Positions 81 to 63,823 of a stretch of 64,000 nt of DNA are shown piece after piece (within the stretch, counting starts at the first letter, position 1; every line of letters begins with the position of its first letter). A program made the translations under genes and the position numbers. Below the pieces are notes generated by a model. That model was given only the letters and a program-made list of their open reading frames with translations, was not told the origin of the DNA and ran no database searches. This DNA is from Henricia sp. BOLD:AAB3569 (taxonomy: Eukaryota; Echinodermata; Asteroidea; Spinulosida; Echinasteridae). The DNA lies in the NCBI GenBank assembly GCA_037783545.1, contig JBBELK010000024.1, positions 2,356,001-2,420,000 on the forward strand. The letters run 5' to 3'.

Positions 81-350
81 TAGTCAGGTGCCTTGCTGTG
101 CGTTGTATATTAGATCCAACCAGTAGAACCTGGACATCATACAACGTGGCCGACAGCAGTCCTACTAACTCAGCGCGTAGATCAGGGTCAGTTGGATAAA
201 TGGACGCTCGATCCGCAACCACCCCTTGTTGGTTAGAAGCAGTCACTTGATATGATGTGAAGACCGTGGATGGGTCTGCCTTACCAACGGTCAGTGTGAT
301 GGACATTGGTGTGGAGTCCAAGATTATGATCTCCCCAATTGTGGCTTTAA
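81..350 (-). CDS. FN3 domain 42 (A-type) exon, last in window
   Basis: 90 codons, phase 1-1, donor GTAAGT at 80-75. KATIGEIIILDS. The tryptophan is replaced by valine (LTVGKADPSTVF), the corner is LLSATLYDV and the end is RHLT. Bases 1-80 belong to the next intron, so further exons lie beyond the left edge. Confidence 0.87.
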
Positions 351-876
351 CTGAAGGTAAAGTAGAAATCAATACAGTCATTTAAGATTTCATGGAATTC
401 AAGAAAGCACTCCTTAGTTCAAGAAAGCACTCCTACATTTCTGAGCCCCCATTTTTCCCATGGGTGTTGAGATTTTGATACCATATCATTTCTCCTAATC
501 TGTCTCATTACTATTCCGAAATTTCGCGCTCTCAATCTGTGTGTTTTCAAGGATATTGTCAAAAAACCACCAATGTTTTGTAAACTAATTTATCAATTCC
601 ATAAAGCAGTGCAGTGATTACACCAACCTTTTTGCTTCCACATCCAAATTGGAGATTGCAATTTTCCTGTTTTCTTCCTATGGATAGTATATTGGGGAAC
701 TATTTTATATGATTGTTAGGTTAGAACGGAATCCATTTACTGGAAAAATCTGAACAATCTCCTTTAAGTGGAAATTCTGAAAGCAAGTTCGATAGATGAC
801 TATCGTAAACTATAGGTCCAGAAATGGCACTTACAAGTGGTGTCAGAATATGGACTTTTGAATACTTGCTATTTAC
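351..876 (-). other. Intron without recognised element
   Basis: 526 bases between domains 41 and 42. AT-rich, with a short direct repeat near 410-440 (CAAGAAAGCACTCCT twice). I see no ORF, TIR or SINE head. Confidence 0.6.
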
Positions 877-1143
877 CTGTTCTAGACGGTATCTCCGCTG
901 GGTTGCTCTCCCCAGCAGAAGCTGAGTTGGCACTGAGTGAGAATCTGTACTCTGTATCAGGATTCAACTCTCCGACCACGTACTCCCTGAGGCCGGGTCC
1001 CAGAACGATTGGTAAGGGGATGATTGAGGGGAAGTAGGACAAGAAGTAAGCCTCAGGGTTGCCGAGGATGGCTGCTTCCCATCGTAGCATGATGGACGAG
1101 ATAGTCACAGTGCCGATACGCAGCTGGATTGGGGGCAGTAATC
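877..1143 (-). CDS. FN3 domain 41 (B-type) exon
   Basis: 89 codons, phase 1-1, donor GTAAAT. LLPPIQLRIGTV, LRWEAAILGNPEAY, corner LNPDTEYRF, ending PSRT. Confidence 0.88.
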
Positions 1144-1215
1144 CTGGAATCGAAGCAAATATCCAACGTTAAATTGCTGCATGCTATATGAACGGTGCTT
1201 GTAGGGGAAAAAACA

Positions 1216-1345
1216 TTAAAGGCAGAGGCTCGTCAGCAATGCGCACGCGCCAAATTCGTGCCACGAAATACGCAAAGACATGGAGCTGCATATTTCGTAG
1301 CACGAAATTGGCGCGCGCGCATTGCTGACGAGCCTCCGCCTTTAA
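1216..1345. mobile_element. TTAA-flanked palindromic MITE (family 1, copy 1)
   Basis: A 130-bp hairpin. The arm TTAAAGGCAGAGGCTCGTCA is mirrored by the right end with few mismatches, and TTAA stands at both tips. A second copy lies at 46425-46565. TTAA duplication is the rule for piggyBac-type transposases, so it is probably a non-autonomous piggyBac-like element (inference). Confidence 0.7.
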
Positions 1346-1369
1346 GGCAAGTTACAATTGCAGACAATT

Positions 1370-1657
1370 GACCTTTATCACGGTGCGGCCATCTTAGTCT
1401 TGTTCCGGGCCCATAGCATGCATAGTATGTGTCGAGGATGATCAGTGCGTCTGCGCAACTGCACGATAGCTTATGTAATTGTTGTTTTGAAAGAATCACT
1501 GTCCGTGCTGCACGTTTTCCTGAACGCGCCACACATGTGCCATTGTGATGCCTACAATAATGAACAATTTCAACACAGACCTTTTTCCTGCAAGACCCGC
1601 TTTGGTTATGTTCATTTTAATAGTGGAAAGGGAAGATGGCCGCACCATGGAAAAAGT
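1370..1657. mobile_element. MITE with GACCTTTATCAC termini, copy 1
   Basis: The left end GACCTTTATCACGGTGCGGC and a right end containing AAGATGGCCGCACC form inverted termini. The outer right tip has decayed. The internal sequence recurs, in reverse orientation, at 51814-52075, where both tips are clear. Confidence 0.55.
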
Positions 1658-1689
1658 CCACTGTTGGGAACACCATTTGAAGCTAAAAA

Positions 1690-1755
1690 ATATTTCCAAG
1701 AAACTTTCTAAAAGCAATTATTTTGGAGAAATTTTTTACTTTCTGGAATTTTTCT
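1690..1755. repeat. Short dispersed repeat (also at 2857-2910)
   Basis: AAAGCAATTATTTTGGAGAA followed by a similar TTTACTTTCTGGAAT stretch occurs in the two neighbouring introns. No termini were recognised. Confidence 0.5.
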
Positions 1756-1871
1756 CAAATAGATCTTGTATTTGTATTTGTATTTATTTACCACATCCAA
1801 CAGCGGAAGAACTGCCAATTATAGGAATGGGATCAATTAACATAGATATTCGAATAACTATCAACTTCTAA

Positions 1872-2130
1872 GTTGAATTAGAAATGGCCAGAGACACCGG
1901 GGAATCCCTCCCCTTGCTCTTCACGAAATAATGCTCTGGGATCTTTAAAGTGCGTTACATGTAACACACTGGACCAACGGCTTTACATCCCTTCCGAAGG
2001 ACGGAACAAGTGTGATTAAGTGCCTTGCTCAAGAGCACAAGTGTCACGGCCCGGAATCGAACCCACATTCTAGTACTGTATGGCACAGGAACTTGAGTTC
2101 GACGCGCTAGACCGCCACCACCTCCTACCC
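1872..2130 (-). mobile_element. SINE, minus orientation
   Basis: The segment has a Pol III B-box-like GGGTTCGATTCCGG (minus strand, near 2052) and a core with GAGCAAGGCACTTAATC next to it. The tail GAGACACCGGGG at the left end is shared with the copy at 16208-16440. Its A-box region near 2100-2125 is degenerate. Confidence 0.55.
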
Positions 2131-2429: not shown

Positions 2430-2705
2430 TTGTTACTTGTGTGACGGCACCGAGGTCGGAATTCTGATTGTTGTCCAAGGAGATTGACAGCGCAAATCGG
2501 TACTCCGTGCCCGGTGTAAGGTTGGTTATGGTTGCAGTGGTGGTTCCCTTACGAACAAACTGAACCTCTTGCTGCGGGAGTCTAGGTGCCGGACTAATTT
2601 CAATGATGTAGCCAACGAAAACTTCAATAGTAGTTGGGGACCAGATCAGAGTCACCTCCCGAGCTTCGTAGGACTGAACAGCCAACATGCCTTCTCCTAG
2701 AGCAC
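2430..2705 (-). CDS. FN3 domain 40 (A-type) exon
   Basis: 92 codons, phase 1-1, donor GTATGT. ALGEGMLAVQS, LIWSPTTIEVFVGY, corner LTPGTEYRF, ending TQVT. Confidence 0.88.
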
Positions 2706-2947: not shown

Positions 2948-3235
2948 TTGTGACAGCGGTTTGGTCTCCGGGCTCACTCTTGACGGCCGATGGTCCAGAC
3001 CCAACAATGTTAACAACACTGACTTTGTACTCAGTTAAAGGCAGGAGGTTTGTGATGTTATACTGGCGAAGTCCCGTGGCGGCCATGTCAGGGTTTAATC
3101 GCTGTATCAGTGTGGGTCTTTCATCACCAGGTCTAGTCAGGAAGATTTCAGATGATAGATGAGGCTCAGTTACCCATGTCAGAGGTAAGGTTGTTGGTCC
3201 AGGTGTAGCAATGATTGGTACTGGTGTGGCAGGCA
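2948..3235 (-). CDS. FN3 domain 39 (B-type) exon
   Basis: 96 codons, phase 1-1, donor GTAAGC. PATPVPIIATP, LTWVTEPHLSSEIF, LLPLTEYKV, ending TAVT. Confidence 0.88.
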
Positions 3236-3267
3236 CTGCAGGGAAATCACATTACATAAGACAATAT

Positions 3268-5834: not shown

Positions 5835-6092
5835 CTGTAAATGCAGTTGTTGTGCTAACTGGCTCCTCATTGACGGCAATTCTCAATAACACCGTGTATT
5901 TGGTGGCAGGGGTAAGGCGAGTGAAGGTGTGTTCCCGTGCCTGGGTGTTGCTGACCATTAACTGCGTGAAACCAGCAGGTTGCGGTGTGATGTCAACGTA
6001 GTAGAATGATGCGCCTTGGCAGATCCCCCATTCAACAGAAAGGGTTGTGTTGGTCGAGGATACCGTTAAGATGTCACATTCTCCAATGTTGC
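5835..6092 (-). CDS. FN3 domain 38 (A-type) exon
   Basis: 86 codons, phase 1-1, donor GTAAGG. NIGECDILTVS, VEWGICQGASFYY, corner LTPATKYTV, ending TAFT. Cysteines in the A strand and just after W-G match the pair in domain 29. No start codon lies near the exon start, so a simple ORF scan misses it. Confidence 0.89.
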
Positions 6093-6766: not shown

Positions 6767-7057
6767 TTGTAGCTGTGTTGACCTCTCTAGGCAAGCTCTC
6801 TGTCAGACTGCCTACTGTACCGCTCTCCGTAGTCACACTAATCTTGTATTGCATCGACGGTTGCAGATCATCGACAGTATACGTTAGAGTGCCTGTCCTA
6901 GGAACCACTCCAGCGGGTTGTCTCATAGCGCCTGGGGTATCTAAATCCTCCGAGTAGATCCTATAGTCATTGAACAGACCACTGGCTGGCTGCCAGGTGA
7001 CCTGGATGGACAAGGAATCAACGCTGAGCACGGTGACTGGGCCAGGCTGGTTGGGAG
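6767..7057 (-). CDS. FN3 domain 37 (B-type) exon
   Basis: 97 codons, phase 1-1, donor GTATGT. PNQPGPVTVLS, VTWQPASGLFNDY, corner LQPSMQYKI, ending NTAT. Confidence 0.9.
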
Positions 7058-7693: not shown

Positions 7694-7960
7694 TTGTACG
7701 CTGAGTAACTGATCTGACAACTTCCGGGTTTGTTCCAGTGAAGAACACATTGATGCGGTACTCTACTCCAGGGAAGAGGTTCTGGAAATCATACAGATAG
7801 GGCCCATTGGCATTGACAATGCCAGTATGTAGTACGCTGCCTGAAGGTGTTTGGCGGATTTCAACGCGATAGCTAATGGGGGTTTGAGACATGGTCCAGC
7901 TGACTGAAATGCTGCGTGGTGTCACGTCAGTAACGTTGATTTCACCTGGAAGTCCATCCT
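7694..7960 (-). CDS. FN3 domain 36 (A-type) exon
   Basis: 89 codons, phase 1-1, donor GTACGT. GLPGEINVTDV, VSWTMSQTPISY, corner LFPGVEYRI, ending TQRT. Confidence 0.9.
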
Positions 7961-8476: not shown

Positions 8477-8746
8477 CCAAACGCAAGGAGCGTGTGACCT
8501 TGTCACTCTGCACACGTTCTTCATTTTCACCCACAAAAGACGAAACGCTGATGATGTATTCGATAGCTGGATTTAGACTGGTCAGTTCCCGTGTGTTGTC
8601 ACCAATGACTTGAGTTGGCAGGAAACGGCTAGGAGAGTAACACACTAGGTACTGGTTGGGTGGTACAACGCTGGTCCAGCCGAGAGTCACAGCTGTAGCA
8701 TCGGAACTGATACTTAGGACGTTTAGCTGACTAGGAACCTGTGGTT
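8477..8746 (-). CDS. FN3 domain 35 (B-type) exon
   Basis: 90 codons, phase 1-1, donor GTGAGA. PQVPSQLNVLS, LGWTSVVPPNQYLVCY with a lone cysteine, corner LNPAIEYII, ending RSLRL rather than T-T-G. Confidence 0.86.
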
Positions 8747-9590: not shown

Positions 9591-9860
9591 TGGTGTACTG
9601 GTTGAGCATGTCACTAGACAGTCCTGTGCCAATAGGTAGAACCGTAATTTCATACCGCGAAGCCGGCTGTAAGTTTGGGCCAATCACTATCGAAGTTGTA
9701 CTGCTAGGAACATTCTCGTTGTAGACTGGGTTGTTGGACTGTGCTCGGTTGATGGCAAGGATTCTGTAATTAGTGAAATCACCCACAAAGACTCCCCAGA
9801 GAATGCGGATGGAGTTACTGGTCACCTCGTCAACTGCAATCTTACCCGGAGTAAGCGTTC
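9591..9860 (-). CDS. FN3 domain 34 (A-type) exon
   Basis: 90 codons, phase 1-1, donor GTAAGT. LTPGKIAVDEV, ILWGVFVGDFTNY, corner LQPASRYEI, ending NQYT. Confidence 0.9.
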
Positions 9861-11159: not shown

Positions 11160-11315
11160 GAGTTGTAACGGTGGTTGTCAGGGGCTCTGACGATGTCAGA
11201 CGTCCAGATTGAAGAACAATGGAAATGTCGTATGTGCATCCAGGTTCCAGACCAGTCAATATGACCTGCGGACAAGCATCGGGCTTCAAGGTGATCTCAA
11301 TGGGTTGAGAAGTGC
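11160..11315 (-). CDS. FN3 domain 33 (B-type), second of two exons
   Basis: 156 bases, phase 1-1, donor GTAGGT. TSQPIEITL, two cysteines in PDACPQVILTGLEPGC that flank the E-F region, then TYDISIV and ending TVTT. The acceptor lies at the end of a long T run. Confidence 0.84.
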
Positions 11316-12090: not shown

Positions 12091-12225
12091 CTGCTCCAGC
12101 GCCCGAGGTCGCAGGTGTTACAGTCGCCACAAGGTTGTCATAAACTCCAGGAGATGATGGTCTTAGGTCCAGGACAATTTGACTTTGTTGTCGAATAGTC
12201 TGCCGTATGGTTGGAGCCACAGGTG
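12091..12225 (-). CDS. FN3 domain 33 (B-type), first of two exons
   Basis: 135 bases, phase 1-1, donor GTACAT. PVAPTIRQT, with leucine in place of the B-strand tryptophan (IVLDLRPSSPGVY). It ends SGAGA plus a split codon and joins 11160-11315. This is the only intradomain intron in phase 1. Confidence 0.8.
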
Positions 12226-13501: not shown

Positions 13502-13756
13502 GCATAATGTACGTAGCCGTAGAAATGAGCTGCCTATTCAGAGCAGCAGTCAAGGCAGCGTATATTGAGATGATGTAATGACGTCCCGGAATCAGATCGA
13601 TGAGCTGAATACTCCTGCCCAAGATTGATAACGCGGTACCATCAGACGGAGTGTACTCAACTTCATATTGGACAAAGTTGATACCGGGAGTGTGTGAGGG
13701 CCACGTCACTTGAAGGTTGCGGTTGCTTATTCTGTTGAATAGCAGAATGCTGTTGT
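13502..13756 (-). CDS. FN3 domain 32 (A-type) exon
   Basis: 85 codons, phase 1-1, donor GTAAGT. NSILLFNRIS, VTWPSHTPGINFVQY, corner LIPGRHYII, ending ATYIM instead of the usual R-T. It is immediately preceded (upstream) by a 16-bp tandem repeat in the intron. Confidence 0.87.
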
Positions 13757-14948: not shown

Positions 14949-15224
14949 CTGTTCGGATAACGGCTTCAGATGGCATGCTTCTAACGTCAGTACCAACCAC
15001 TGTGTACACACGAACGGTGTAATTAGTCCCTGGTGTCAACTCGTCAATCCTAGAGCGAATTTGTCCCCTCGGTAAAGTTTCAAACAGCTCTTCAGGGTTT
15101 GATCCAGTGAAGAAGACAACTTGATACCTGAAGGCACCCGAGTTACCGACGGCCGAGCCCCATTGGAAGGCAATCAGGGTTTGTGTGGTGGCAACTTCGG
15201 TGACCGTTCCTGGTGCATTTGGCC
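14949..15224 (-). CDS. FN3 domain 31 (B-type) exon
   Basis: 92 codons, phase 1-1, donor GTAAAT. PNAPGTVTEVA, FQWGSAVGNSGAF, corner LTPGTNYTV, ending VIRT. Confidence 0.89.
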
Positions 15225-15667: not shown

Positions 15668-15925
15668 TTGTATACTGCAGTGCTTCCGTGGTTGGCAATG
15701 CAGTTCCCTGAATCCGCACGGTGATTTGGTACTCTACCCCAGGCATGAGTGAGGTGATTGTAGTACTAGTGGTGCTTAGGGAAACAGAGCGGGCCTGAAT
15801 CTGCCCTCCTTGGGCTGGTACAGCACTGATGATGAACCCAGAGCCTGTAGGACTGGCTCCCCAGGAAATGGTGATGCTTGTTGTGTCATAGTCTTCTATA
15901 GTGATTTCCCCTGGTGGAGCCGCGG
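15668..15925 (-). CDS. FN3 domain 30 (A-type) exon
   Basis: 86 codons, phase 1-1, donor GTAAGT. AAPPGEITIEDY, ISWGASPTGSGF, corner LMPGVEYQI, ending LQYT plus split codon. The exon is open throughout in this frame. Confidence 0.89.
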
Positions 15926-16784: not shown

Positions 16785-17036
16785 CTGTAGAAGCAGTTAA
16801 TAACTGTGGTTGACTTCGCTGGTTCCCACTGATTGTTACCACAGAGATGGTGTATTCGGTAGCCGGTTCAAGACCTGTTAGACTAGCCTCAAGGTTATTG
16901 TGGGAGATGCTTCCATCTTGTGGAGTGTAGGTTACTTCAAAGGAGCCCCACACTGTTCCTTCAGGTGTACACCAGGTGAAGTCTAGTCTGTGTGCTGTGC
17001 TTAGCTTCAGGGAGATGTCACATGTCGGCAGTGGTA
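16785..17036 (-). CDS. FN3 domain 29 (B-type) exon
   Basis: 84 codons, short for a B-type. Phase 1-1, donor GTTTGT. PLPTCDISLKL, FTWCTPEGTVWGSF, corner LEPATEYTI, ending TAST. Two cysteines, one in the A strand and one directly after the B-strand tryptophan, could bond across the sheet (inference). Domain 38 has the same pair. Confidence 0.87.
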
Positions 17037-18743: not shown

Positions 18744-18983
18744 CTGTATTTGTGGTGACGAAGGACGCTTCGCCAAATCTATAGATCAAACTGATGATGA
18801 CTTCCCTTCCAGGCATGAGTCTGGAAACGGTTCCCGAGTCTCTGTCATTGGCAGTTCGAGCACCTGGTAATGATAATCCCAAATCATATGAAGAGCCAGT
18901 TGTTGAAGGTCGAGGTACCCAGGCTACCGATACTACGGTGGTGTCAACGGAGACTATGTAGATAACCTCTTGCCCGGAGGAAA
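18744..18983 (-). CDS. FN3 domain 28 (A-type) exon
   Basis: 80 codons, the shortest domain. Phase 1-1, donor GTTGGT. SSGQEVIYIVS, VAWVPRPSTTGSSY, LMPGREVII with the corner tyrosine replaced by valine, ending TTNT. The unusual donor and missing tyrosine make it the most divergent A domain. Confidence 0.83.
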
Positions 18984-19589: not shown

Positions 19590-19865
19590 GTGTTGTGGTT
19601 ATTGACTGCTCTCGTCTACTTCTTGCACTGTCATAGAGTGCCCACAATTGTACTCGATAGCTGGTACCCGATATCAGGCCATCAACTACATACTCTTTGG
19701 CATCTCTGGGCAGCGGAACCAGCTTAATTTCAACATAGGGAGTGTTGTCTAGGCCGTAACCCAGCTGGTAGCTTTGGTATCTGCCATTGGCCGGAGGGTC
19801 CCATGTGACCTTGAATGAGGTAATTGTCTCCTCTGAGATGGCAGGATTTCGTACTGGCTGGGGAT
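19590..19865 (-). CDS. FN3 domain 27 (B-type) exon
   Basis: 92 codons, phase 1-1, donor GTAAGA. PQPVRNPAISEE, VTWDPPANGRYQSY, LISGTSYRV, ending ITTT. A TTAA-ended MITE finishes only 18 bases downstream of the donor. Confidence 0.89.
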
Positions 19866-21308: not shown

Positions 21309-21578
21309 TTGTCCTTATAATTACAGAATTCTGGAATGTCTCAGTTCCTCCTTGCCTAACTTGGTAGAGTCTGATCCGATACAGAGTAGCGGGCTCTAGA
21401 CCACCTATGTTGTCGCTGTATGATCGGTCACTTCTCACTGGTATCGGCCGGGAACCAATTGGGTTTTGGCCTTCTGGTCCCCAGCTCAGTCGGTAACCAG
21501 TGATACTGAGTGAACTGGTGTCGCTCCAACTGATGTAGATATAGGTATCATCTGGTTGTACGATAAACCTCACAGGAC
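21309..21578 (-). CDS. FN3 domain 26 (A-type) exon
   Basis: 90 codons, phase 1-1, donor GTGAGT. PVRFIVQPDD, ISWSDTSSLSITGY, corner LEPATLYRI, ending IIRT. A tRNA-like SINE lies about 50 bases downstream of the donor. Confidence 0.89.
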
Positions 21579-22039: not shown

Positions 22040-22157
22040 GTGTTGTGACTGTGACTGAAGACGGATCACTGATTGTTGCCGTTGGTCCTGAGCCGCTAAC
22101 GGATCGGACAGACACAATGTACAACGTGTTAGCTGATAATTCATCCACAATGTACTC
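22040..22157 (-). CDS. FN3 domain 25 (B-type), second of two exons
   Basis: 118 bases, phase 0 to phase 1, donor GTAAGT. EYIVDELSANTLYIV, then VSGSGPTAT in the F-G turn and ending TVTT. The acceptor is TGTATTCAG. Confidence 0.86.
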
Positions 22158-22972: not shown

Positions 22973-23148
22973 CAGAGTATCAGCTGGTACAGGTCCATGC
23001 ACGGTTTCTATACCATTGGGGCCTGTAAAAGCAATTCTGTAGGATGTCAGTTCAGATGGTTGAATTGATGGAGCACTCCACCTAATAGGCACGCCGTTGG
23101 CTGTCGTGTCTTCAGGAAGTGCCGTAACTAGACCAGGAGTTGCAGGCT
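22973..23148 (-). CDS. FN3 domain 25 (B-type), first of two exons
   Basis: 176 bases, phase 1 to phase 0, donor GTAAGA. PATPGLVTALP, IRWSAPSIQPSELTSY, ends ADTL. Joined to 22040-22157 it makes a 98-codon domain. Confidence 0.86.
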
Positions 23149-24373: not shown

Positions 24374-24640
24374 TGGTTCGCTGCACAACTCGTCTTTCCT
24401 CGGGTCCCGGTATAGTCTCCACAACAATGCTGTATTGTCGGCCTGGAACCAAGTTAATCAGTCGAGTTCCTGCAGAGGGCGAAACTCCCGCAGGCACAGA
24501 AGTAGCGAAGACGTTATTACCGCTGGGATCGACAAACGACACAGTGTACCGCTCCACAGAGCCAGGGGTAACGTCCCAAAGTAGCTCCAACTCGGTTGTC
24601 TGTACGTCGCGGATGAGGATTTCGCTCGGAGGAATCGGTT
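24374..24640 (-). CDS. FN3 domain 24 (A-type) exon
   Basis: 89 codons, phase 1-1, donor GTACGT. PIPPSEILIRDV, LLWDVTPGSVERY, corner LVPGRQYSI, ending VQRT. Its start resembles a B-type (P-x-P-P), but the C-terminal half is plainly A-type. Confidence 0.88.
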
Positions 24641-25182: not shown

Positions 25183-25455
25183 CTGTTCGAACCGTGACAC
25201 GATCCGGCATACTAATGAGTCTGTTTGGTCTAGTGCCAACGATGGTAGCCAGTTCAACCACATAGGTCGAGTCAGGACTCAAACCAGTAATCTCGTAGTC
25301 TCTGAGCATTGCTATTTCATCAACCACTGTGCGGACATTGTTGGAATCTCTGTAGGCAATCTGGAAGCTCCCGAAACTGCCTGATGGAGGCTGGCCATTG
25401 ATGATTACGGACAGGGCGTCGTTTCTTACCGAGATGACTTGAGGACTCTCTGGTC
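25183..25455 (-). CDS. FN3 domain 23 (B-type) exon
   Basis: 91 codons, phase 1-1, donor GTAAAA. PESPQVISVRN. The conserved tryptophan is missing (VIINGQPPSGSF). The corner is LSPDSTYVV and the end is TVRT. Confidence 0.88.
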
Positions 25456-26174: not shown

Positions 26175-26450
26175 TTGTAAACTGCAAGATCAAGTTTCTG
26201 GCAGCACTTCCACTGGTCAGAATAGCTTGAACCGAGACCTCAAACTGAGTTCCCGAACTCAATTCAATGAATGTATGCTCCAGCTGTTCATTGGAACCGT
26301 ACTGCTCTGTCATAAGGTTGCCTGGTACGCTGGGTAGTTTAATAGCCGCCAGGTAGAACTGGATGGTCGGGTTACTGCTCTGGCCCCAGCGGATTCGGAT
26401 GGTCGTTTCAGTCACTTGAACAATGTAGATTTCATTTTCGCGGATGGATA
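26175..26450 (-). CDS. FN3 domain 22 (A-type) exon
   Basis: 92 codons, phase 1-1, donor GTGAGT. SIRENEIYIVQV, IRWGQSSNPTI, LSSGTQFEV where the corner tyrosine is phenylalanine, ending LQFT. Confidence 0.88.
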
Positions 26451-27008: not shown

Positions 27009-27165
27009 CTGTTGTTCCAGTTCCCCTTGCTGGTTCTCCAGAGACCTCATTGGGTTGCGAACCAACGAAAGATGTCACAATGAAATCATACGTTACTCCG
27101 CTGTCAAGACCCGTTACCTTCCGCTCTCTAGTGTTACTGTCCACTGCACCATCAGAGATCTCAAT
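27009..27165 (-). CDS. FN3 domain 21 (B-type), second of two exons
   Basis: 157 bases, phase 0 to phase 1, donor GTATAG. It begins IEISDGAVDS, has the corner LDSGVTYDF and ends GTTG. The acceptor CAATTTAG directly precedes ATTGAG. Confidence 0.85.
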
Positions 27166-27700: not shown

Positions 27701-27834
27701 CTGTCGACCTTGTACTCCATATGACACTTCATAACCACTGACAAATCCAAATGCAGGTTGCCACTCAATGACCAGGGAAACTGGAGTGACTTCACTTCCT
27801 GGTTGGACTCTCACATTACTGGCAGGGTTTGGTC
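27701..27834 (-). CDS. FN3 domain 21 (B-type), first of two exons
   Basis: 134 bases, phase 1 to phase 0. PNPASNVRVQP, IEWQPAFGFVSGY, ends GRQ at donor GTAGGA. It pairs with 27009-27165 to make a 97-codon domain. It is the first exon downstream of the LINE-bearing intron. Confidence 0.86.
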
Positions 27835-32538: not shown

Positions 32539-32690
32539 TTACAATGTTATTAAGTTAGGTTAATAACATATGGAGTTATGTTATTTATTATCAGGTCTAG
32601 GGGATCTACTTCTTGTTCTATTCTTTGAGTTTGTAGATACTTGTTGAAGTTCTGTATAATAGACTTCCATGTCGTCTTCTGCTTCGTCAT

Positions 32691-35348: not shown

Positions 35349-35606
35349 GTGTTCGCTGCGAGATCGTAGACATCGAGTTTGGATCGCCATTACCCGGGAT
35401 AAGGAACACCGTGATGCTGTACTCCATTCCCGCTGTGAGACCAGTAATTGAAGCAGTGCGTTGCGGTTGATTGACTGCGACTGGCGCGGACTGCGGAGTG
35501 ACCGTTACGCCATACACAATGCTGGTATCAGCCACTGCACCCCAAGCAATATCGATTGTCATTGTTGTCAAGTCAAGAACACCGATTTGCAGTCGGTTAA
35601 GAGCAA
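35349..35606 (-). CDS. FN3 domain 20 (A-type) exon
   Basis: 86 codons, phase 1-1, donor GTGAGT. LNRLQIGVLDL, IAWGAVADTSIVY, LTAGMEYSI (the usual P of the corner is A), ending SQRT. The next intron downstream is 7.5 kb long and holds the intact LINE. Confidence 0.89.
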
Positions 35607-35924: not shown

Positions 35925-36209
35925 CTGTACTAGCCGCTACGACTGCCGCTTCGCTCTTAGTGATCGTTGCGCCACGTCCAGCAACCGTCGTCACAAACAC
36001 GTTGTATGTTGTACCCGGCAGAAGTCTACGTAGCGTGTAGGTGGTGACGTCAGCTTCAACAAAATCTACACTCGTCCTTGGACCACTCTCAATGTTGTAC
36101 TCAATCTCAAAGAGATCAAGTTCACCAGCAGGACGAGCCCAGTTGACTGTGACTGAGGTGGAAGTGGGCTCCTGTATGTCCACAACCAAATTGGAAGGTG
36201 GCTGAGGCC
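35925..36209 (-). CDS. FN3 domain 19 (B-type) exon
   Basis: 95 codons, phase 1-1, donor GTAGGT. PQPPSNLVVDI, VNWARPAGELDLF, corner LLPGTTYNV, VAGRGAT in the F-G turn, ending AAST. Confidence 0.9.
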
Positions 36210-37604: not shown

Positions 37605-37853
37605 TTGTTCTTTTAACCAGGGATCCTTCCTCGTTCTGACCCACAAGAAGTGTGATGGTGTACTCAGTTCCAGGGGTGAGATTGTTGAATGTGACCACGC
37701 GGTCGTCCTCTCGCAAAACGCTTTGATCCGATAAGGAACCAGGGCGAATACGCAGCAAGTAGTTGAGGAATGTGCCAGCTATTGGGCCCCAACTGACTGT
37801 TAATGACGTGTTGTCAAAGCTCAGGCAGATAATGTCCCCAGCTGCAAGGGTAA
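37605..37853 (-). CDS. FN3 domain 18 (A-type) exon
   Basis: 83 codons, phase 1-1, donor GTAAGC. LAAGDIICLSF with a lone A-strand cysteine, VSWGPIAGTFLNY, corner LTPGTEYTI, ending VKRT. A hAT-like MITE ends only about 30 bases downstream of the donor. Confidence 0.89.
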
Positions 37854-39165: not shown

Positions 39166-39447
39166 TTGTTGTGAAGACCCGCTGCAGAGGATCACTCTCT
39201 CTGAAGCCAACAACTCGACCCGACACCGCCTTGACAGAGAACGTGTAATCAGTGCTTGGCCGCAGGTTATCTACTCTAAGCTCCAGCGGGGAGTCTGAGT
39301 CAACGTTCTGAGGAGGTTCTGGGGTGCCATCAGGGGGCGAGTAGGTCACTTCGTACAGATCTACCTCCCCAAAACCGGGTTGCCACTGTACCGCGATGGT
39401 TGTCGCTGTAGTGATGGATGGTGTGAGGGATACTGGTGTCGAGGGCT
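39166..39447 (-). CDS. FN3 domain 17 (B-type) exon
   Basis: 94 codons, phase 1-1. It starts PSTPVSLTPS, has VQWQPGFGEVDLY, corner LRPSTDYTF and ends VFTT. The donor is GTTAGC, which is weak by consensus. Read-through would meet a stop at once (AGT TAG). Confidence 0.87.
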
Positions 39448-39926: not shown

Positions 39927-40190
39927 TTGTTCTCTCTGTGGTGCCAAAGTTTGCCACTAGATTATCCGGTCGAACCTGGATGTTAAACGAATAGTCCCTG
40001 CCAGGGAAGAGGCCATTGAGAACCAATGAAGCAGTGTTGCCGGCTGTTGGAATGACGATTCTCGGATTGTCACCAACAGGTGGAGATATGAAGACAGAAT
40101 AGGAAACGGCACTGGGGACCTCGTTCCACAGCAAGGTGAGGGAGGTGGTTGTTACACCACGAGTTATGATCATGTTGTCTGCAATTGCTT
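39927..40190 (-). CDS. FN3 domain 16 (A-type) exon
   Basis: 88 codons, phase 1-1, donor GTAAGG. Features: AIADNMIITRG, LLWNEVPSAVSY, corner LFPGRDYSF, ending TERT. Confidence 0.88.
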
Positions 40191-41342: not shown

Positions 41343-41642
41343 CTGTAGTGTACGTCTTTCTCTGCACAGTGCTACCCTGTTGCTCCTCAAGATTCTGTGA
41401 ACTATCAGACAGAAGCACGGTGCCAACAGACACCTCATAAGCGGTCTCTGGATCCAGATCAATGAAAGTGTACCGTGTGGGCTCCGATGGGAATATGGGA
41501 TCTGCAATGACTCGGATACCGGTTGGGTCCGTGATTGATACCCTGTAGAAGTCAAATGATCCCGCAGGGGCACCGATCCAAGAGATGGTCAGAGATGTCG
41601 GGGTTCTCGCAACTAGACTGATCACGCCTGGTGAACGCGGGT
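41343..41642 (-). CDS. FN3 domain 15 (B-type) exon
   Basis: 100 codons, the longest domain. Phase 1-1, donor GTGAGC. Features: PRSPGVISLVA, ISWIGAPAGSFDFY, corner LDPETAYEV, and a longer F-G region (SDSSQNLEEQQG) before the end TYTT. Confidence 0.89.
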
Positions 41643-42044: not shown

Positions 42045-42293
42045 TTGTTCTAACAGTTGTCCCGAAGGGCTGTCCCGGCTGCAGACTAACAAGCGGCACA
42101 ATGGTAATGGTGTAAATCGTCGCTGGTTGCAGAGAAGTAAATTCCGCCTGGAGTCTGTCGTCATTAATAGTTCCAACTCCAGCTGCATTGATGGTAGTGG
42201 TATATAGAGAGGCACTAGGCACGGCTCCCCATATTACAACCACACTGTCCTCCGTAATGCTCTTCACAAAGACTTCTCGCTCAGCCAGTGAGG
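42045..42293 (-). CDS. FN3 domain 14 (A-type) exon
   Basis: 83 codons, phase 1-1, donor GTAAGT. SLAEREVFVKSI, VIWGAVPSASL, corner LQPATIYTI, ending TVRT. The acceptor reads TTCGTAG. Confidence 0.88.
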
Positions 42294-44479: not shown

Positions 44480-45175
44480 CTCATAGGGATTCAAACCTGA
44501 GACTTCTGACTCACCAGGCAGATGCTCTACCAGCTGAGCTATGAGGCACAGTGGTATACTCCCTCATGTTTTCCCCAAGACCTCTGACACACCAAGCAGA
44601 TGCTCTACCAGCTGAGCTATGAGGCACAGTGGTATACTCCCTCATGTTTTCCCCAAGACCTCTGACACACCAGGCAGATGCTCTACCAGCTGAGCTATGA
44701 GGCACAGTGGTATACTCCCTCATGTTTTCCTCAAGACCTCTGACATACCAGGCAGATGCTCTACCAGCTGAGCTATGAGGCACAGTGGTATACTCCCTCA
44801 TGTTTTCCCCAAGACCTCTGACATACCAGGCAGATGCTCTACCAGCTGAGCTATGAGGCACAGTGGTATACTCCCTCATGTTTTCCCCAAGTCATCGACA
44901 CACTGGGCAGATGCTCTACCAGCTGAGCTATGAGGCACAGTGGTATACTCCCTCATGTTTTCCCCAAGACATCTGACACACTGGGCAGATGCTCCACCAG
45001 CTGAGCTATGAGGCACAGTGGTATACTCCCTCATGTTTTCCTCAAGACCTCTGACACACCAGGCAGATGCTCTACCAGCTGAGCTATGAGGCACAGTGGT
45101 ATACTCCCTCATGTTTTCCCCATGACATCTGACACACGCTCTACCAGCTGAGCTATGAGGCACAGTGGTATACTC
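44480..45175 (-). repeat. Tandem array of a tRNA-SINE head, 9 units of about 78 bp
   Basis: Units begin (plus strand GCAGATGCTCTACCAGCTGA) at 44518, 44596, 44674, 44752, 44830, 44907, 44985 and 45063, with a shortened ninth near 45137. On the minus strand every unit holds TAGCTCAGCTGGTAGAGCAT, the Pol III A-box region. Only the last one (44490) also has the B box GGTTTGAATCC. Reading through gives a repeated SSAGRASAW peptide, which is not a gene. Confidence 0.9.
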
Positions 45176-45501: not shown

Positions 45502-45777
45502 CTGTAAGTCCAGACACACTTATGGGTGTGCTTCTCTGGTTTCCAGCCGCCACAACCAGTGTAAATGTGTAGTTACGACCAGGATCCAGTCCAGTCATTG
45601 TGTATGACGTGAGACCAGACTCCGGATTGATTATCGGTATGTTTACAGGAGGTCCGTTATCGAAGGAGGTTACCGCGAGCCTGTAAGATGTCAGAACACC
45701 GCCCCCTGGAGTCCACTGTAGACTGATTGATGCAGGAGCGGTAACGGTCACCATGAAGTTACTTGCTGGTCGGGGAA
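45502..45777 (-). CDS. FN3 domain 13 (B-type) exon
   Basis: 92 codons, phase 1-1, donor GTACCA. It starts PRPASNFMVTV, has LQWTPGGGVLTSY, corner LDPGRNYTF, GNQRSTP in the F-G region (compare GNQRSQP in domain 29) and ends SGLT. Confidence 0.89.
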
Positions 45778-46716: not shown

Positions 46717-46983
46717 TGGTTCTTTGCGTTACACTGTCTTCTCTGTTGTTGGTGCTAGCAGCAAAAATCAGCGTAACTGTGATAGTATACTCCTCTCCAG
46801 GAGTCAAACCACCAAACGTCGCTGTTCGTTGATCTCTGTCTGTTGTCGGTACAGTCGGTACAGCTGGTACGATTCTTAGTGAAGTGTCTATATAGCCAGT
46901 GAGGGTGGTACCATCGCCCCATGCTATCTCAATGGACGTGCTTGAAAAGGATAGCACCACGGTTTCTGCTGCACTTAATGTAC
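46717..46983 (-). CDS. FN3 domain 12 (A-type) exon
   Basis: 89 codons, phase 1-1, donor GTAAGT. Features: SAAETVVLSF, IAWGDGTTLTGY, corner LTPGEEYTI, ending TQRT. This is a textbook A-type domain. Confidence 0.9.
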
Positions 46984-47861: not shown

Positions 47862-48146
47862 CTGTAGTAGCAGTAGTTGATGCGAAATCGCTTGTTGATT
47901 CGCAGCCTTGGCCATCAGACACCGTCTGCACTAAGATCATATACGTTGTATCTGGGAATAACCCCATCACAGTGTACGATGACACAAACTGTCCGACTTC
48001 TCCGGATAAAACCATGGGACCATTGTTCAGGCTGTACCAGATTCTGTAACCGCTGAAGATATTGTTTAATCCGCTGTCGCTGATAGTGACACTGATTGTG
48101 GTTGCAGTCCTACTATGTAGCATCACTTGTCTTGGCGATAGTGGTT
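47862..48146 (-). CDS. FN3 domain 11 (B-type) exon
   Basis: 95 codons, phase 1-1. The conserved tryptophan is isoleucine (VTISDSGLNNI). The corner is LFPDTTYMI, a single cysteine sits in GQGCEST, and the end is TATT. The donor GTTGGA departs from the usual GTAAGT, which could make this a weaker splice site. Confidence 0.86.
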
Positions 48147-48750: not shown

Positions 48751-49008
48751 TTGTTCTGACTGCTTTCATTTCTTGAGCCACTCCAGCTACAGACACTGAG
48801 ATGTTGTACTTCTGGCCGGGAACCAGGTTCATGAAATCAACAAGCCGAGGATCATTACGTTGAACATTTCGGACATCGGCCTGACCTCCGTTACTTGGGA
48901 TCAGCGTCAGAATGTAGGGATTAGTAGTACCAGACACTTCACCCCAAGTAACTTGGATTGAATCGGTCGTCACGTCACGGATGATGACTTCAGCTGGTTG
49001 AGCTGCGA
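48751..49008 (-). CDS. FN3 domain 10 (A-type) exon
   Basis: 86 codons, phase 1-1, donor GTAAGT. AAQPAEVIIRDV, VTWGEVSGTT, corner LVPGQKYNI, ending AVRT. Nearest visible relative within the window is domain 2. Confidence 0.9.
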
Positions 49009-49418: not shown

Positions 49419-49700
49419 TGGTTGAGAATGTTGCCCTAATCCGATCACTCTCTGTTCTATTAGGACTCGCTGTACGACTAACAAGCCTGAAGGCGTACTC
49501 AGTCTCTGGCAGTAAGTTGGACACAACCACGTCACGAGGATCACCCAATGCACTGAGGAATGGGGAAGCCGGTGTGCCATCGTCAGGCAGGTAGAAGATT
49601 TGGTAATGTTCAAACTCGCCGCCTGAGGGCACGGCCCATGTCAATCGTAAGGATGTAGACTGGGGACTTGAAAACGTAAGCATGTGTGGAGGTAGGGGAT
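49419..49700 (-). CDS. FN3 domain 9 (B-type) exon
   Basis: 94 codons, phase 1-1, donor GTAAGT. It begins PLPPHMLTFSS, carries LTWAVPSGGEF, corner LLPETEYAF and ends TFST plus a split codon. The bases after the exon read TAAGTG on the plus strand, fitting a TTAG acceptor. Confidence 0.88.
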
Positions 49701-50973: not shown

Positions 50974-51246
50974 TCGTTCGTTGTTGAGTGCTAATGATGA
51001 ACTGTGAGGCAAAGTCAATATCGATATCATACAGTCTTCCAGGAAACAGGCCTATAAGGGTACGGTAGACGAGACCAGTGCGAGTGACGCTGTTAAAGGA
51101 AATGATTTGATTGGCTGACGGCCTGGTGTCCCCATCAGGGTAGATGTACAACAAGTAGAAATTGATGCCTGACTGGTGTTTCCATACGACGCTGATTGAA
51201 TTTGTTGTCCAATCTTGAATGATCACCTGGTTGTCTGGAACAGACA
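50974..51246 (-). CDS. FN3 domain 8 (A-type) exon
   Basis: 91 codons, phase 1-1, donor GTAAGT. Features: PDNQVIIQDW, VVWKHQSGINF, corner LFPGRLYDI, ending QQRT. DNxVII is shared with domain 16 (DNMIITRG). Confidence 0.88.
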
Positions 51247-52266: not shown

Positions 52267-52391
52267 CTGTGAGTGTGCTCTGAATGCAGGGGTTGTCACT
52301 GACACAGAACTCGCCTCCATTAATGTTGTTCGCTAGAGACTGAATGCTAACAACATACGGTGTATCGGGCATCAAGCCATAGATAGTGTAC
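52267..52391 (-). CDS. FN3 domain 7 (B-type), second of two exons
   Basis: 125 bases, phase 2 to phase 1. It reads YTIYGLMPDTPYVV and contains two cysteines six residues apart (EFCVSDNPC) near the F-G turn, then ends STLT plus a split codon. The cysteines may form a small disulfide loop (inference). The donor is GTAATG. Confidence 0.87.
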
Positions 52392-54629: not shown

Positions 54630-54795
54630 TCATTCTCAGTGTAATCAAGCAGAGGGCTTGCAACAAACTCAGCTCCAATAGGATCATAATATCGGACTCG
54701 GTAGAAGTCCAACTTGCCCACAGCAGGATTCCATCTCAATCTGACTGTAGTTGGGCCGGGTACGAGTTCAGCAAGGGTGCCAGGATCGGGTGGGT
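54630..54795 (-). CDS. FN3 domain 7 (B-type), first of two exons
   Basis: Phase 1 to phase 2, 166 bases. It starts PPDPGTLAELVP, has LRWNPAVGKLDFYRV, and ends ENE with the last codon split GA|G at donor GTAAGT. It joins the exon at 52267-52391 to make a 97-codon domain. The intron between the halves (2.2 kb) holds the nested TTAA element and the CACTA-like fold-back. Confidence 0.87.
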
Positions 54796-55248: not shown

Positions 55249-55491
55249 TTGTTTTTGCCATTCCACTGAAGCTCGTTTGTGCATCCAAGGTCACGGTCAT
55301 TGTGTAGACCGTCGTAGGGTTCAGATTCTCAAAGAGATATGTCTTGGCGTCACCAACAAACATGTTACTGCTGGTGGGTGGATCTTGACTGGCGATGAAG
55401 AGCGTTGTGGCAGTGGATTCACCAATCCACAGTACCCTGATAGTGGTTGATGTGACTTTAAGAATGTACAGAGTGGATGGTTGGGCTGCAC
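55249..55491 (-). CDS. FN3 domain 6 (A-type) exon
   Basis: 81 codons, one of the shortest domains. Phase 1-1, donor GTAAGC. Features: AAQPSTLYILKV, VLWIGESTATT, corner LNPTTVYTM, ending MAKT. The usual glycine after W is shifted by one residue (W-I-G). Confidence 0.87.
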
Positions 55492-60384: not shown

Positions 60385-60669
60385 TTGTGGTATGGCGTAT
60401 AGACGAAGGCACGCTGGTAACTCGATCGTTGTCGGTTCCTGATGCCGTTTCAACCTCAATCAGATATTCAGTCTGTGGTTTAAGGTCCTTCAGTTCATAA
60501 AACTGAGTGTTCTGGTTCACCGTGTCTGCCGGTTTGCGAATCTGTCGTCCTACTTCGGTGTAATAAATGTCAAATGCGCCAAAGACACCCTGTGGAAGAC
60601 TGTATCGGAAACGGGCACTTGTTGGCGTAGAGGAGAGGGAAATGAACAATGAGCCTGGTGGATTGGGAA
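60385..60669 (-). CDS. FN3 domain 5 (B-type) exon
   Basis: 95 codons, phase 1-1, donor GTAGGT. It starts PNPPGSLFISL. The tryptophan position is a tyrosine (RFRYSLPQGVF), the corner is LKPQTEYLI and the end is RHTT. The next exon downstream lies 4.9 kb away, because the intron holds the BEL-bearing inverted-repeat element. Confidence 0.88.
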
Positions 60670-61041: not shown

Positions 61042-61308
61042 TTGTTCTTTGGAACTTGAGCCTGCGAATTTCTTGGGAGGCGTCCACTCTAAGTACTCTA
61101 AGACTAATCTCATAGAGTTGACCCGGCGTTAGTCCACTGAACACAGCGCGCCGTCCAGTGGCATCAACTTCATCAGCAAACACTCCCAGTGGATAGATGG
61201 ATACGTCATAACCAATTAACCCTGATTGGCCAGTGGCATCGCCCCAGGTTATGGTGATGGATGTTAAGGTGACTTCAAGACACACGATTTCTCCAGCAGC
61301 GGGTGAGA
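61042..61308 (-). CDS. FN3 domain 4 (A-type) exon
   Basis: 89 codons, phase 1-1, donor GTAAGT. It carries PAAGEIVCLEV with a lone cysteine in the A strand, ITWGDATGQS, corner LTPGQLYEI and ending FQRT. The same cysteine position recurs in domain 18 (IICLSF), so these two A domains are close relatives. Confidence 0.9.
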
Positions 61309-61804: not shown

Positions 61805-62101
61805 CTGTGAAAACTGACTGAGTAAGATCATCGCTTGTCCGAGATGTCTGGCCTGTTCCTGATACGGTAGCAGCATACAGCGTGTAGTTGGTGCTAGGTA
61901 GCAAGTCTTTGAACGTGTACATAGTGGCACTAGCAGGAAGAAAAATTGTCTTGGAGGGGAGATTGTCTCGAATGCCGATGGCTAGCCTGAAGAGGTCAAA
62001 GATCACCGGTTGGCCATTGAAGTTGGCAGGTGGACTGAAGGAGAACTGGATGGATGTTAGGTTGGGAGTCACGCTGGTGAAGGATGCAGGTCTGGTTGGC
62101 T
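61805..62101 (-). CDS. FN3 domain 3 (B-type) exon
   Basis: 99 codons, phase 1-1, donor GTAGGT. The usual B-strand tryptophan is replaced by phenylalanine (QFSFSPPANF). The corner is LLPSTNYTL and the sequence ends SVFT plus a split codon. Acceptor CTGCCAG follows a run of T on the coding strand. Confidence 0.88.
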
Positions 62102-62177
62102 CTGGCAGGAAAAAAAGATAAACAGTCAATTAGCCTTTGGCGTGTTTTACATGAATGGTGTCCTGCAGGGTTGTAAT

Positions 62178-62268
62178 CATGTCCATCACATGTCCATCAC
62201 ATGTCCATCACATGTCCATCACATGTCCATCACATGTCCATCACATGTCCATCACATGTCCATCACAA
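62178..62268 (+). repeat. 11-bp tandem repeat
   Basis: About eight exact units of CATGTCCATCA, then decay (CAAGTCACTG). Confidence 0.9.
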
Positions 62269-62318
62269 GTCACTGGGTGATAATTCAAGTCACAAGCTAT
62301 TCAAATGAACAAAGTGAC

Positions 62319-62790
62319 CAAGGGCCAATTTCATAAAACATGTTACGCTTAATCAAAGATTTTGAATTAAGGGCCTATTTCATTAAGCTTGTTGTTCTAA
62401 GCGCGCGTAGAGGGTGCACACGCGCAACGCTGTCGTCTGTTTTGTTTAAACACATTCATCGTCTGCTTTCATAAGTCAACGTCAAAATTATCAAGTACCA
62501 TTATCGATAATGTTTCCAATTTGGGATGATTATTACTACCACAGAAGACCCTTGCCTGTCGATGACTGGAATATTTTAACAACAGCTGAAAGTTGTGTAT
62601 CTGTTGGAATATGTGTCGCGAATTTTGCCGAGTATGACGAAGAAAAAAGATGGCGTCGCGTTAGCAAAAAAATAGTAGGTTAGCATGCTGTTTGGTTTGC
62701 TAGTGCTTAAACGGTTTTATGACATGGAGAGAGCTCTGCTTAATCAGAAATCAGGTGCTAACTTTTTTTTAATGAAATTGGCCCAGGTCA
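62319..62790. mobile_element. TIR element GGGCCAATTTCATAAA
   Basis: ACCAAGGGCCAATTTCATAAA on the left and TTTTAATGAAATTGGCCCAGGT on the right. The inside repeats GGGCCTATTTCATTAAGC near 62370. It is related to the termini found at 4681 and 9238. Confidence 0.6.
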
Positions 62791-62967
62791 TACCAAATTC
62801 TTTCTATGCCGCCGCATTTTCTTAAGGCCACGTATGTCACATTTATGCGAATTACCGCGTGAACAAAAGTTTTAAAATGACATAATTGATCTAAATTACA
62901 ATGCACCCTTAATGCCTAGTGCTGCATGGAAGTTAAAATCTTTAACATCATAAAAATTTGGACTCAC

Positions 62968-63219
62968 TTGTCCTGACAACTTTTCTTCCAGTCGGCAATG
63001 CAGCAACATTTGTGGACACCTGTATGACGTACTCCTTGCCAGGAACCAGATTACTGAAGGTCCTAACTGCGGGCCTGCCTGTAGACGCTACCTGAGACGA
63101 CGCGTCGGCACTGATCTCCAGGGTGTAACCAGTGAAGCTTCCAGTAACTTCACCCCAAGTGAACTGAATGCTAGATTCAGTGACTCGGCGGATGATAACT
63201 TCAGCTGGGTTTGCGCTGA
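62968..63219 (-). CDS. FN3 domain 2 (A-type) exon
   Basis: 84 codons, phase 1-1, donor GTGAGT. A-type signature: PAEVIIRRV, FTWGEVTGSF, corner LVPGKEYVI, C-terminus VVRT plus split codon. It is closely similar to domain 10 (PAEVIIRDV, VTWGEVSGTT), which suggests that these two are copies from a fairly recent duplication of the A-B unit. Confidence 0.88.
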
Positions 63220-63254
63220 CTGTGATTGGATAAATTACACATCATGCTAAAAGT

Positions 63255-63450
63255 TTAAAGCCCCAAAATGTTACTTCACGACTCGACAAGAAAAACCTGA
63301 CTAAAAATGTTAATAGCAATGATAACAAACACCACATGATTTTTTGTCCGTGGAAAATGGTACCTTTGTGGGAGAAATTGTCAACCGAAGGTGTTTTATT
63401 AATTATATTTTAAATTGTCTGCAGACATTTTTTTCACCAGTCATTCAACA
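63255..63450. repeat. Partial TTAA-family-2 copy
   Basis: CTCGACAAGAAAAACCTGAC, ATAGCAATGATAACAAACACC and GTCAACCGAAGGTG match the inside of 12993-13319. The right half is missing. Confidence 0.55.
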
Positions 63451-63529
63451 CAAAAAAAACAGTAATGGATTTTACATAGAATAACATTAACTCGATGGGC
63501 ATTCTGAAGACAAAAATCAAGTTACTTAC

Positions 63530-63823
63530 TCGTCATGAACGTTTCCGAAACCTCTTGACTTTTCTCACTCGTAGTACCGGTACTATCACCGGATACGGCC
63601 TCAATAGTCACAACATAGTTGCTATCTGGCAGCAAGTTTTCAAACTTCACCTGCTGGGGGCTTCCGGACCGGACGACCAAATTCGAGGGAGTGGTCCCCT
63701 CGGCGGGGAAGTGAGAAACTAAGAAGAAGTCCAAGATGCCTTGACCTAGTGTGGTGCCCCAAGCAACCTCTATGGATGTGGAGGAGCTCTCGATCAATCG
63801 TAAGTTGACTGGAGGATTGGGAC
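63530..63823 (-). CDS. FN3 domain 1 (B-type) exon
   Basis: 98 codons, phase 1 to phase 1, acceptor CCGGCAG and donor GTAAGT. It starts PNPPVNLRL, has the B-strand tryptophan in VAWGTT, the tyrosine corner in LLPDSNYVV, and ends FMT plus a split codon. It is the most upstream exon in the window, so preceding exons lie to the right of position 64000. Confidence 0.9.

Follow-up and report, generated by a model that had tools for sequence, protein, structure and literature searches.

The genome of the asteroid Henricia sp. BOLD:AAB3569 (GenBank assembly GCA_037783545.1, 740 Mb) contains what we read, with a probability of about three in four, as the gene of a giant R3-type receptor tyrosine phosphatase, in which some 118 extracellular fibronectin type III (FN3) domains precede one transmembrane (TM) helix and one cytoplasmic protein tyrosine phosphatase (PTP) domain. 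We analysed a 64-kb stretch of contig JBBELK010000024.1 (C24:2356001–2420000), hereafter the window, together with 100 kb of flank on each side. The minus strand of the window encodes 42 FN3 domains of two types, which alternate as B, A, B, A and so on from position 63823 down to 81, with exon edges exactly as given in a preliminary description of this DNA. The array is not confined to these 42 domains. The window is the middle third of one gene (domains 39–80), which extends to both sides and occupies the minus strand of C24 from about 2471.1 to 2283.1 kb.

Organization of the gene

FN3 exons on the same strand extend over 175 kb of C24, from 2471126 to 2296456, with a widest interdomain gap of 7.5 kb, and behind them lie membrane-proximal, TM and PTP exons down to 2283100. 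The count of about 118 domains comes from hidden Markov model (HMM) matches after merging of split exons and includes weak members: domain 2 is incomplete, and some matches to the halves of domains 7, 25, 115 and 118 have E values above 0.2. Phase 1 scored best as splice phase at 74 of the 76 flank acceptors and at 70 of the 76 flank donors. About 4 kb separates the last FN3 domains from the TM exon, with no change of strand or phase. This exon (C24:2292769–2292858) was identified by its hydrophobicity and by its alignment with the TM of relatives, and the exons just before it match the membrane-proximal region of an Antedon protein.

The PTP exons (2289606–2283100) encode an intact HCSAGVGRSG motif, which spans an exon junction with the intron after HC, and a WPD loop that reads WGD, with the general-acid Asp kept. 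No matches to a second PTP set were found downstream to 2256001, which indicates a single cytoplasmic PTP domain. In a tree of 22 PTP rows (P0001, P0055 and P0093, which lacked the motif searched for, were left out), the sequence groups with R3 rather than R2A or R5 phosphatases and falls with deuterostome R3 proteins into a cluster of 13 rows (support 94/80, not starred). From this succession of an FN3 array, a TM exon and one PTP domain with an intact HCSAGVGRSG motif, we conclude that the gene probably encodes a giant R3-type receptor tyrosine phosphatase, the parts of which would be joined in one transcript.

Pfam was searched with 20 open reading frames (ORFs), of which 10 came from the 5′ end (2470–2480 kb) and the others from the window, six being array frames and four retroelement frames. 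No non-FN3 domains were found in these 20 ORFs except those of the retroelements themselves and a weak zinc-finger match, and none of the 20 matched an immunoglobulin (Ig) domain. The 10 ORFs of the 5′ end gave just known FN3 domains, weakly matched, besides the zinc finger.

Alternation of two FN3 domain types

Domains were found by six-frame HMM scans, in which every listed FN3 match in the window lay on the minus strand, and exon edges were then taken from splice-site reading. The 42 domains of the window derive from 46 exons, which when joined encode 3810 amino acids without a stop. The outer introns have a phase-1 acceptor and a phase-1 donor at all 42 domains, and four B domains are split by an internal intron (Table 1). 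Type A domains average 86 amino acids (range 79–91) and type B domains 93 (range 83–99). The Pfam fn3 model matched four of the six array frames tested, and the other two were picked up by window-derived models. Structure models of A10 (predicted local distance difference test score, pLDDT, 96.5; alignment of 21 window rows only) and B17 (pLDDT 96.8; 17 window rows only) have the FN3 fold and match solved FN3 domains.

Since the domains had first been labelled by their position, tests independent of that label were needed. Among the 42 window domains, the mean pairwise score was 58.9 at even offsets versus 42.3 at odd offsets, a difference reached in 0 of 20,000 permutations. A single branch of the maximum-likelihood (ML) tree separates the 21 A domains from the 21 B domains, without the mixing that would have spoken against two types; this branch has a support of 85/91 (not starred) and occurs in 83% of 200 bootstrap trees, the bootstrap not having settled. 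Label-free spectral clustering into two groups reproduced parity for 41 of the 42 domains, the best match was of the same type for 38, and leave-one-out HMM typing was correct for 40, with A32 and B35 wrong by 1–2 bits. In a quick tree of 197 rows (42 from the window, 65 from Ptychodera, the first 36 from Glandiceps, the first 20 from Antedon and 34 from chordates), the 163 labelled rows require three changes of the A/B label; when the chordate rows form a third class, the count rises to 12, against a possible minimum of two. The strict alternation of A and B over the 42 domains, as first described, is thus confirmed.

Over the whole array the type switches at 102 of 117 neighbour pairs (shuffle mean 58, maximum 79 in 20,000), and the longest alternating run comprises 83 domains, from 13 to 95. 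The flanks, no part of which was training data, switch at 33 of 37 neighbours on the 5′ side and 26 of 37 on the 3′ side. Two of the breaks rest on weak calls: domain 12 scores 45.2 bits as A and 45.3 as B, and the Amphiura and Glandiceps partners of domain 96 are typed A.

The motifs by which the preliminary description had told the types apart are tendencies, not rules. WG is present in 11 of 21 A versus 2 of 21 B domains, P is the first residue in 20 of 21 B versus 2 of 21 A, and PxxP occurs in 16 of 21 B versus 1 of 21 A. Exons end in RT in 12 of 21 A and 3 of 21 B, and in TT in 8 of 21 B. The final S of the R-T-S ending formerly given for A, and the final G, R or S of the T-T-G/R/S ending given for B, are read-through into the splice donor.

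Growth by duplication of single exons, with the two types an accident of labelling, would find a parallel in the single duplications of a relative (domains A15–A17 of an Amphiura protein, see below). It is ruled out as the source of the pattern by the ML tree and the offset test, where separation of A and B and dominance of even offsets were observed, and the label-free clustering, the flanks and the species outside the training data speak against it as well; we regard it as extraordinarily improbable.

Second haplotype contig

The second haplotype contig, C103, carries the same exons with about 94–99.7% identity in the 40 kb compared. This bears on the possibility that the locus, which is repetitive, represents a false tandem expansion of a shorter array during assembly. 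Such a misassembly would yield near-identical copies, and the window domains differ strongly from one another (the mean identity of A members to A10 is about 27%); together with the agreement of the two contigs, this makes an artefact very improbable. Between about 43777 and 50074 in the window the haplotype contigs are about 2–6% apart, versus about 0.3–0.4% in other parts compared. In the 26 of 42 domains compared between the two haplotype copies, 17 codons differ, 15 of them in domains 9–11, with 13 nonsynonymous and five synonymous base differences and a ratio of nonsynonymous to synonymous polymorphism (pN/pS) of 0.89. As it gave no signal, the allele comparison was dropped as proof of selection.

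Relatives within Ambulacraria

A protein search with domains 1–20 as the query gave a brittle-star PTPRB-like protein as the top match, and its matches also included tenascin and collagen XII. The full query matched a Ptychodera 'titin-like' protein first, followed by Amphiura and Antedon proteins, and a query with the Antedon TM–PTP region added Glandiceps, Ptychodera PTPRB-like and crinoid proteins among the best 120 of 304 matches. We typed 23 of the 145 collected proteins with A/B profiles trained on the window. These profiles alternate in Ptychodera 'titin-like' P0019 (62 of 64 neighbours, 65 domains), Glandiceps P0050 (54 of 65), Amphiura P0020 (47 of 56) and P0001 (19 of 24, p 0.003), Antedon P0021 (31 of 39) and Ptychodera PTPRB-like P0049 (21 of 29, p 0.009). 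No alternation of the window types was found in 15 other proteins with enough domains, from amphioxus, vertebrates, tunicates and cnidarians and including tenascin, collagen XII and R2A phosphatases; the crinoid proteins P0067 and P0074, with six matches each, have too few to say anything. A label-free contrast showed alternation in the window gene, P0019, P0050 and P0021 (p 0.001 each) and in P0020 (p 0.009), and did not show it in P0049 (p 0.41) or P0001 (p 0.85). The preliminary description knew of no named protein with so long a pattern; the arrays of Ptychodera, Glandiceps, Amphiura and Antedon are comparable.

In Glandiceps, Amphiura and Antedon, single gene models join such arrays to a PTP domain. 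Five of the six ambulacrarian models include PTP, with 25 to 66 FN3 domains per PTP-bearing model. The membrane-proximal domains 94–118 correspond one-to-one to domains 1–25 of Amphiura P0001, with 14 of 18 reciprocal best matches on one diagonal (0 of 500 permutations). The same domains share diagonals with Amphiura P0020 (domains 33–57, 9 of 19 reciprocal best matches) and Glandiceps (domains 38–48, 5 of 25), each again reached in 0 of 500 permutations, and weaker ones with Antedon (4 of 18; 1 of 500) and Ptychodera P0049 (3 of 18; 30 of 500). In this reciprocal best-match test the gene shared no diagonal with Ptychodera P0019, Branchiostoma or Clavelina, and its distal array was collinear with none of the ambulacrarian relatives. 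The relatives point by themselves to an ambulacrarian gene, and the closest collinearity, that with Amphiura, to an echinoderm.

The neighbours 105 and 106 are both of type B, and so are their counterparts in the two Amphiura proteins, Glandiceps and Ptychodera; in Antedon this holds only via a second diagonal (103–26, 106–29), where the two B open a run of five. This slip in the alternation is probably ancestral. Domains 15–17 of Amphiura P0020 are three A in a row with similar sequence, which break the register and apparently stem from a recent single-domain duplication. B33 of the window (gene domain 71) is a paralogue of domain 103, 32 domains apart; it had been considered as the orthologue of an Amphiura/Antedon anchor domain and was dropped when domain 103 proved the better partner.

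The FN3 array might instead belong to a separate secreted or matrix gene of the tenascin or titin kind that merely lies upstream of a phosphatase gene, as might be taken from the tenascin and collagen XII matches of the first search and from the closest long match, P0019, a gene model with a titin-like annotation that lacks a PTP. We consider this unlikely, given that the FN3 domains stop no more than some 4 kb short of the TM exon, with strand and phase unchanged, and that domains 94–118 are collinear with an Amphiura protein that forms one model with PTP. P0019 and P0049 are listed on contigs of equal size (53098162), so that P0019 may be half of a split model, and the two may be halves of one gene.

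Two-type alternation beyond Ambulacraria

An earlier conclusion of ours, that alternation is absent outside Ambulacraria, was overturned by the label-free contrast and by two-cluster strings. Clavelina, Hydra, Xenia and Acanthaster PTPRF-like proteins alternate too, between types of their own (the arrays of this kind are P0051, P0042, P0022, P0072 and P0060, from Hydra, Xenia, Clavelina and echinoderm PTPRF-like proteins). In two-cluster strings, alternating neighbours numbered 12 of 14 in Hydra, 25 of 31 in Xenia, 14 of 17 in Acanthaster and 12 of 13 in Amphiura PTPRF-like; Clavelina had 26 of 61, nearly all within one run, and Mugil PTPRB did not alternate (4 of 31). The occurrence of own-type alternation in Hydra, a coral, a tunicate and LAR-like proteins means that the pattern itself is not unique and represents a recurring design. 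This array stands out by its length, and its two types by their age and spread.

Growth of the array

Within-type similarity over domains 13–95 peaks at offsets 8 (z 6.9), 16 (5.5) and 24 (3.4), with a family-wise p of 0.0005, the floor of the test; for the window alone, offset 8 has a family-wise p of 0.0007. Among the relatives, Antedon has a super-period of four (p 0.004) and Glandiceps of two, and Ptychodera P0019 showed no significant offset (p 0.08). The lack of collinearity in the distal array and the eight-domain super-repeat point to growth by even-sized blocks. The proposal of the preliminary description, duplication of a two-domain unit, thus appears to stand in that growth by even exon numbers, not by single FN3 exons, is supported by the sequence comparisons; the recent unit would be eight domains (four A–B pairs), with the two-domain unit as an older layer.

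We propose that types A and B diverged before the split of echinoderms and hemichordates, and that the array lengthened by unequal exchange duplicating even numbers of exons, the most recent unit in this lineage being eight domains. Exchange of like with like would shift the array by two, and later by eight once an eight-domain block existed. As like pairs with like in such exchange, the register would keep itself and alternation would outlast the turnover of the distal array, with no need for selection. The 25 membrane-proximal domains would have stayed put as a fixed foot while the distal array grew.

A tentative alternative is that alternation is kept by selection and not by duplication history alone, either with A–B as a structural unit with two different interfaces (RT-x-P before B, T-x-A before A) or with unlike neighbours avoiding mis-pairing in folding. 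The register has outlived distal turnover in separate lineages, and arrays that alternate between two domain types other than these arose in Hydra, Xenia, Clavelina and PTPRF-like proteins. Björklund et al. cite the low identity between adjacent Ig and FN3 domains, and mention that anti-aggregation pressure may favour multi-domain duplications (PMC1553488). Yet homology-guided exchange alone predicts that even offsets dominate and that peaks fall on multiples of eight, and runs of one type do exist, namely the three A of Amphiura, the slip at 105/106 and the B-type membrane-proximal end. Selection as the keeper of the pattern is therefore possible, if doubtful, and we favour exchange between like exons.

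Weighing of the receptor phosphatase reading

Several points weigh against a giant R3-type receptor with this history. Its placing among the R3 proteins in the PTP tree is not settled, and a long-branched eel protein with an R3-type PTP_tm annotation falls outside the R3 cluster. WGD in place of WPD makes the catalytic strength uncertain. Ptychodera P0019 combines 65 alternating domains with a gene model that has no PTP. A scan of 2471–2520 kb for hydrophobic start exons gave no signal-peptide exon, and the joined model of 118 domains, TM and PTP is a prediction from genomic exons. Neither flank by itself shows a significant eight-domain period (5′, family-wise p 0.47, best offset 16; 3′, family-wise p 0.26, best offset 6), and the small allele sample, covering 26 of the 42 domains, gives no sign of purifying selection.

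Possible function and significance

An FN3 domain measures about 3.5 nm. For 118 domains this gives a reach of about 0.4 µm, and the ectodomain, if fully extended, would be a very long beaded stalk with the phosphatase at its foot. It would most probably serve as a long stalk or tether at the cell surface and determine where the phosphatase acts. As proposed for other R3 receptors, a bulky or tethering ectodomain would decide the placement of the phosphatase among its substrates. Ligand binding and size exclusion have been discussed as roles of R3 ectodomains, and for PTPRQ the cross-linking of stereocilia shafts (PMC10815196).

With this gene, R3 receptors would gain a form with over six times the FN3 domains of the largest human member, and with a readable history on three levels (domain, A–B pair and eight-domain block) adjoining a frozen module. 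History and selection as sources of domain order in long stalks could thereby be told apart in a natural test, and size-based models of these phosphatases could be tested as well, as relatives seem to differ in reach with enzyme and foot constant.

Speculatively, Ambulacraria may have retained through more than 500 million years a receptor phosphatase with a stalk adjustable in length by A–B pairs, a fixed anchor of about 25 domains and a distal array rebuilt in each lineage from even blocks (eight here, four in Antedon); the two-type arrays of cnidarian, tunicate and LAR-type phosphatases would then have evolved independently. If this were true, the reach of this receptor would vary between species by hundreds of nanometres, and the independent origins would point to a general rule that long FN3 stalks need unlike pairs.

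Features of the window and its surroundings

The FN3 exons of the window are listed in Table 1. Several introns contain mobile elements or repeats. A LINE-like (long interspersed nuclear element) sequence lies on the minus strand between A20 and B21 (28849–33992), with a 1229-amino-acid frame comprising endonuclease, reverse transcriptase and RNase H, and a 433-amino-acid frame upstream without a Pfam match. Remains of a BEL/Pao-type retrotransposon occupy several minus-strand frames between B05 and A06 (57103–59553), of which the frame at 57103–58254 matches Peptidase_A17 and an integrase zinc-binding domain. Reverse-transcriptase fragments occur on the minus strand between B13 and A14 (42728–44449), a region in which the alignment to C103 has a gap of about 650 bases (43131–43777). 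An intronic 78-bp minisatellite with 8.8 copies (94% match) lies at 44500–45175. About 0.5 Mb from the window, both haplotype contigs carry a large array of FN3 exons (C24:2882814–2968848 and C103:1987702–2068278), several of which have equal scores; this is probably another giant FN3 gene.

Table 1. FN3 exons in the window (window positions; basis is HMM match and splice-site reading unless stated otherwise).
Feature	Position	Strand	Basis
FN3 B01 (gene domain 39)	63530..63823	-	HMM and phase-1 splice sites
FN3 A02	62968..63219	-	
FN3 B03	61805..62101	-	
FN3 A04	61042..61308	-	
FN3 B05	60385..60669	-	
FN3 A06	55249..55491	-	
FN3 B07 exon 1 (internal intron phase 2)	54630..54795	-	
FN3 B07 exon 2	52267..52391	-	
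FN3 A08	50974..51246	-	
FN3 B09	49419..49700	-	
FN3 A10 (structure modelled)	48751..49008	-	
FN3 B11	47862..48146	-	
FN3 A12	46717..46983	-	
FN3 B13 (identical on C103)	45502..45777	-	
FN3 A14	42045..42293	-	
FN3 B15	41343..41642	-	
FN3 A16	39927..40190	-	
FN3 B17 (structure modelled)	39166..39447	-	
FN3 A18	37605..37853	-	
FN3 B19	35925..36209	-	
FN3 A20	35349..35606	-	
FN3 B21 exon 1 (internal intron phase 0)	27701..27834	-	
FN3 B21 exon 2	27009..27165	-	
FN3 A22	26175..26450	-	
FN3 B23	25183..25455	-	
FN3 A24 (alternative acceptor possible at 24664)	24374..24640	-	
FN3 B25 exon 1 (internal intron phase 0)	22973..23148	-	
FN3 B25 exon 2	22040..22157	-	
FN3 A26 (divergent)	21309..21578	-	
FN3 B27	19590..19865	-	
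FN3 A28 (divergent)	18744..18983	-	
FN3 B29	16785..17036	-	
FN3 A30	15668..15925	-	
FN3 B31	14949..15224	-	
FN3 A32 (weak type call)	13502..13756	-	
FN3 B33 exon 1 (internal intron phase 1)	12091..12225	-	read from sequence, no own HMM match
FN3 B33 exon 2 (paralogue of gene domain 103)	11160..11315	-	
FN3 A34	9591..9860	-	
FN3 B35 (weak type call)	8477..8746	-	
FN3 A36	7694..7960	-	
FN3 B37	6767..7057	-	
FN3 A38	5835..6092	-	
FN3 B39	2948..3235	-	
FN3 A40	2430..2705	-	
FN3 B41	877..1143	-	
FN3 A42 (gene domain 80; gene runs on past base 1)	81..350	-	

Comparison with known systems

No literature title describing this receptor form was found in a search that left most subscription papers outside. 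The gene resembles the R3 receptors (PTPRB/VE-PTP, PTPRJ/CD148, PTPRH, PTPRO and PTPRQ) in its FN3 ectodomain, one TM and one PTP, and in the encoding of FN3 domains by 1:1-phase exons, with an internal intron of phase 0, 1 or 2 in some domains. For R3 receptors, an exon pattern of 1:1 and, more rarely, 1:0:1, 1:1:1 or 1:2:1 has been described, and WVD and WTD at the WPD loop have been reported in two sea urchin R3 proteins (PMC5336234). Human R3 members have 8 to 18 FN3 domains by UniProt count (PMC10815196). The present gene differs from these human members in its approximately 118 FN3 domains, its alternation of the window types, its distal block expansion and its WGD in place of WPD.

With the ambulacrarian proteins P0019, P0049, P0050, P0020, P0001 and P0021 it shares the same A and B types, as judged by window-trained HMMs, and its membrane-proximal module is collinear in P0001, P0020 and P0050 and more weakly in P0049 and P0021. 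Unlike this gene, these relatives have non-collinear distal arrays with other super-periods, and Amphiura P0020 carries EGF and C-type-lectin annotation. Two alternating domain types are also a feature of the Hydra PTPRQ-like, Xenia titin-like, Clavelina, and Acanthaster and Amphiura PTPRF-like proteins, but their types are not separated by the window A/B models, and the copies are far more alike in Hydra and Xenia.

Unlike a titin-like muscle protein, which is cytoplasmic and lacks a TM segment, the array is followed by a TM exon and a PTP. Such muscle proteins also have Ig domains among their FN3 domains and a kinase, and no Ig match came from the 20 ORFs searched with Pfam. Tenascins carry EGF repeats and a fibrinogen domain at the C terminus, where this array leads into TM and PTP exons. 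The hierarchical block duplication of this gene, read by autocorrelation, recalls the super-repeats of nebulin (seven domains) and the titin A-band (PMC1553488), although these are muscle cytoskeletal proteins and this is a putative receptor. Björklund et al. give four domains as the main FN3 duplication unit (PMC1553488), whereas the units of this array appear to be two and eight.

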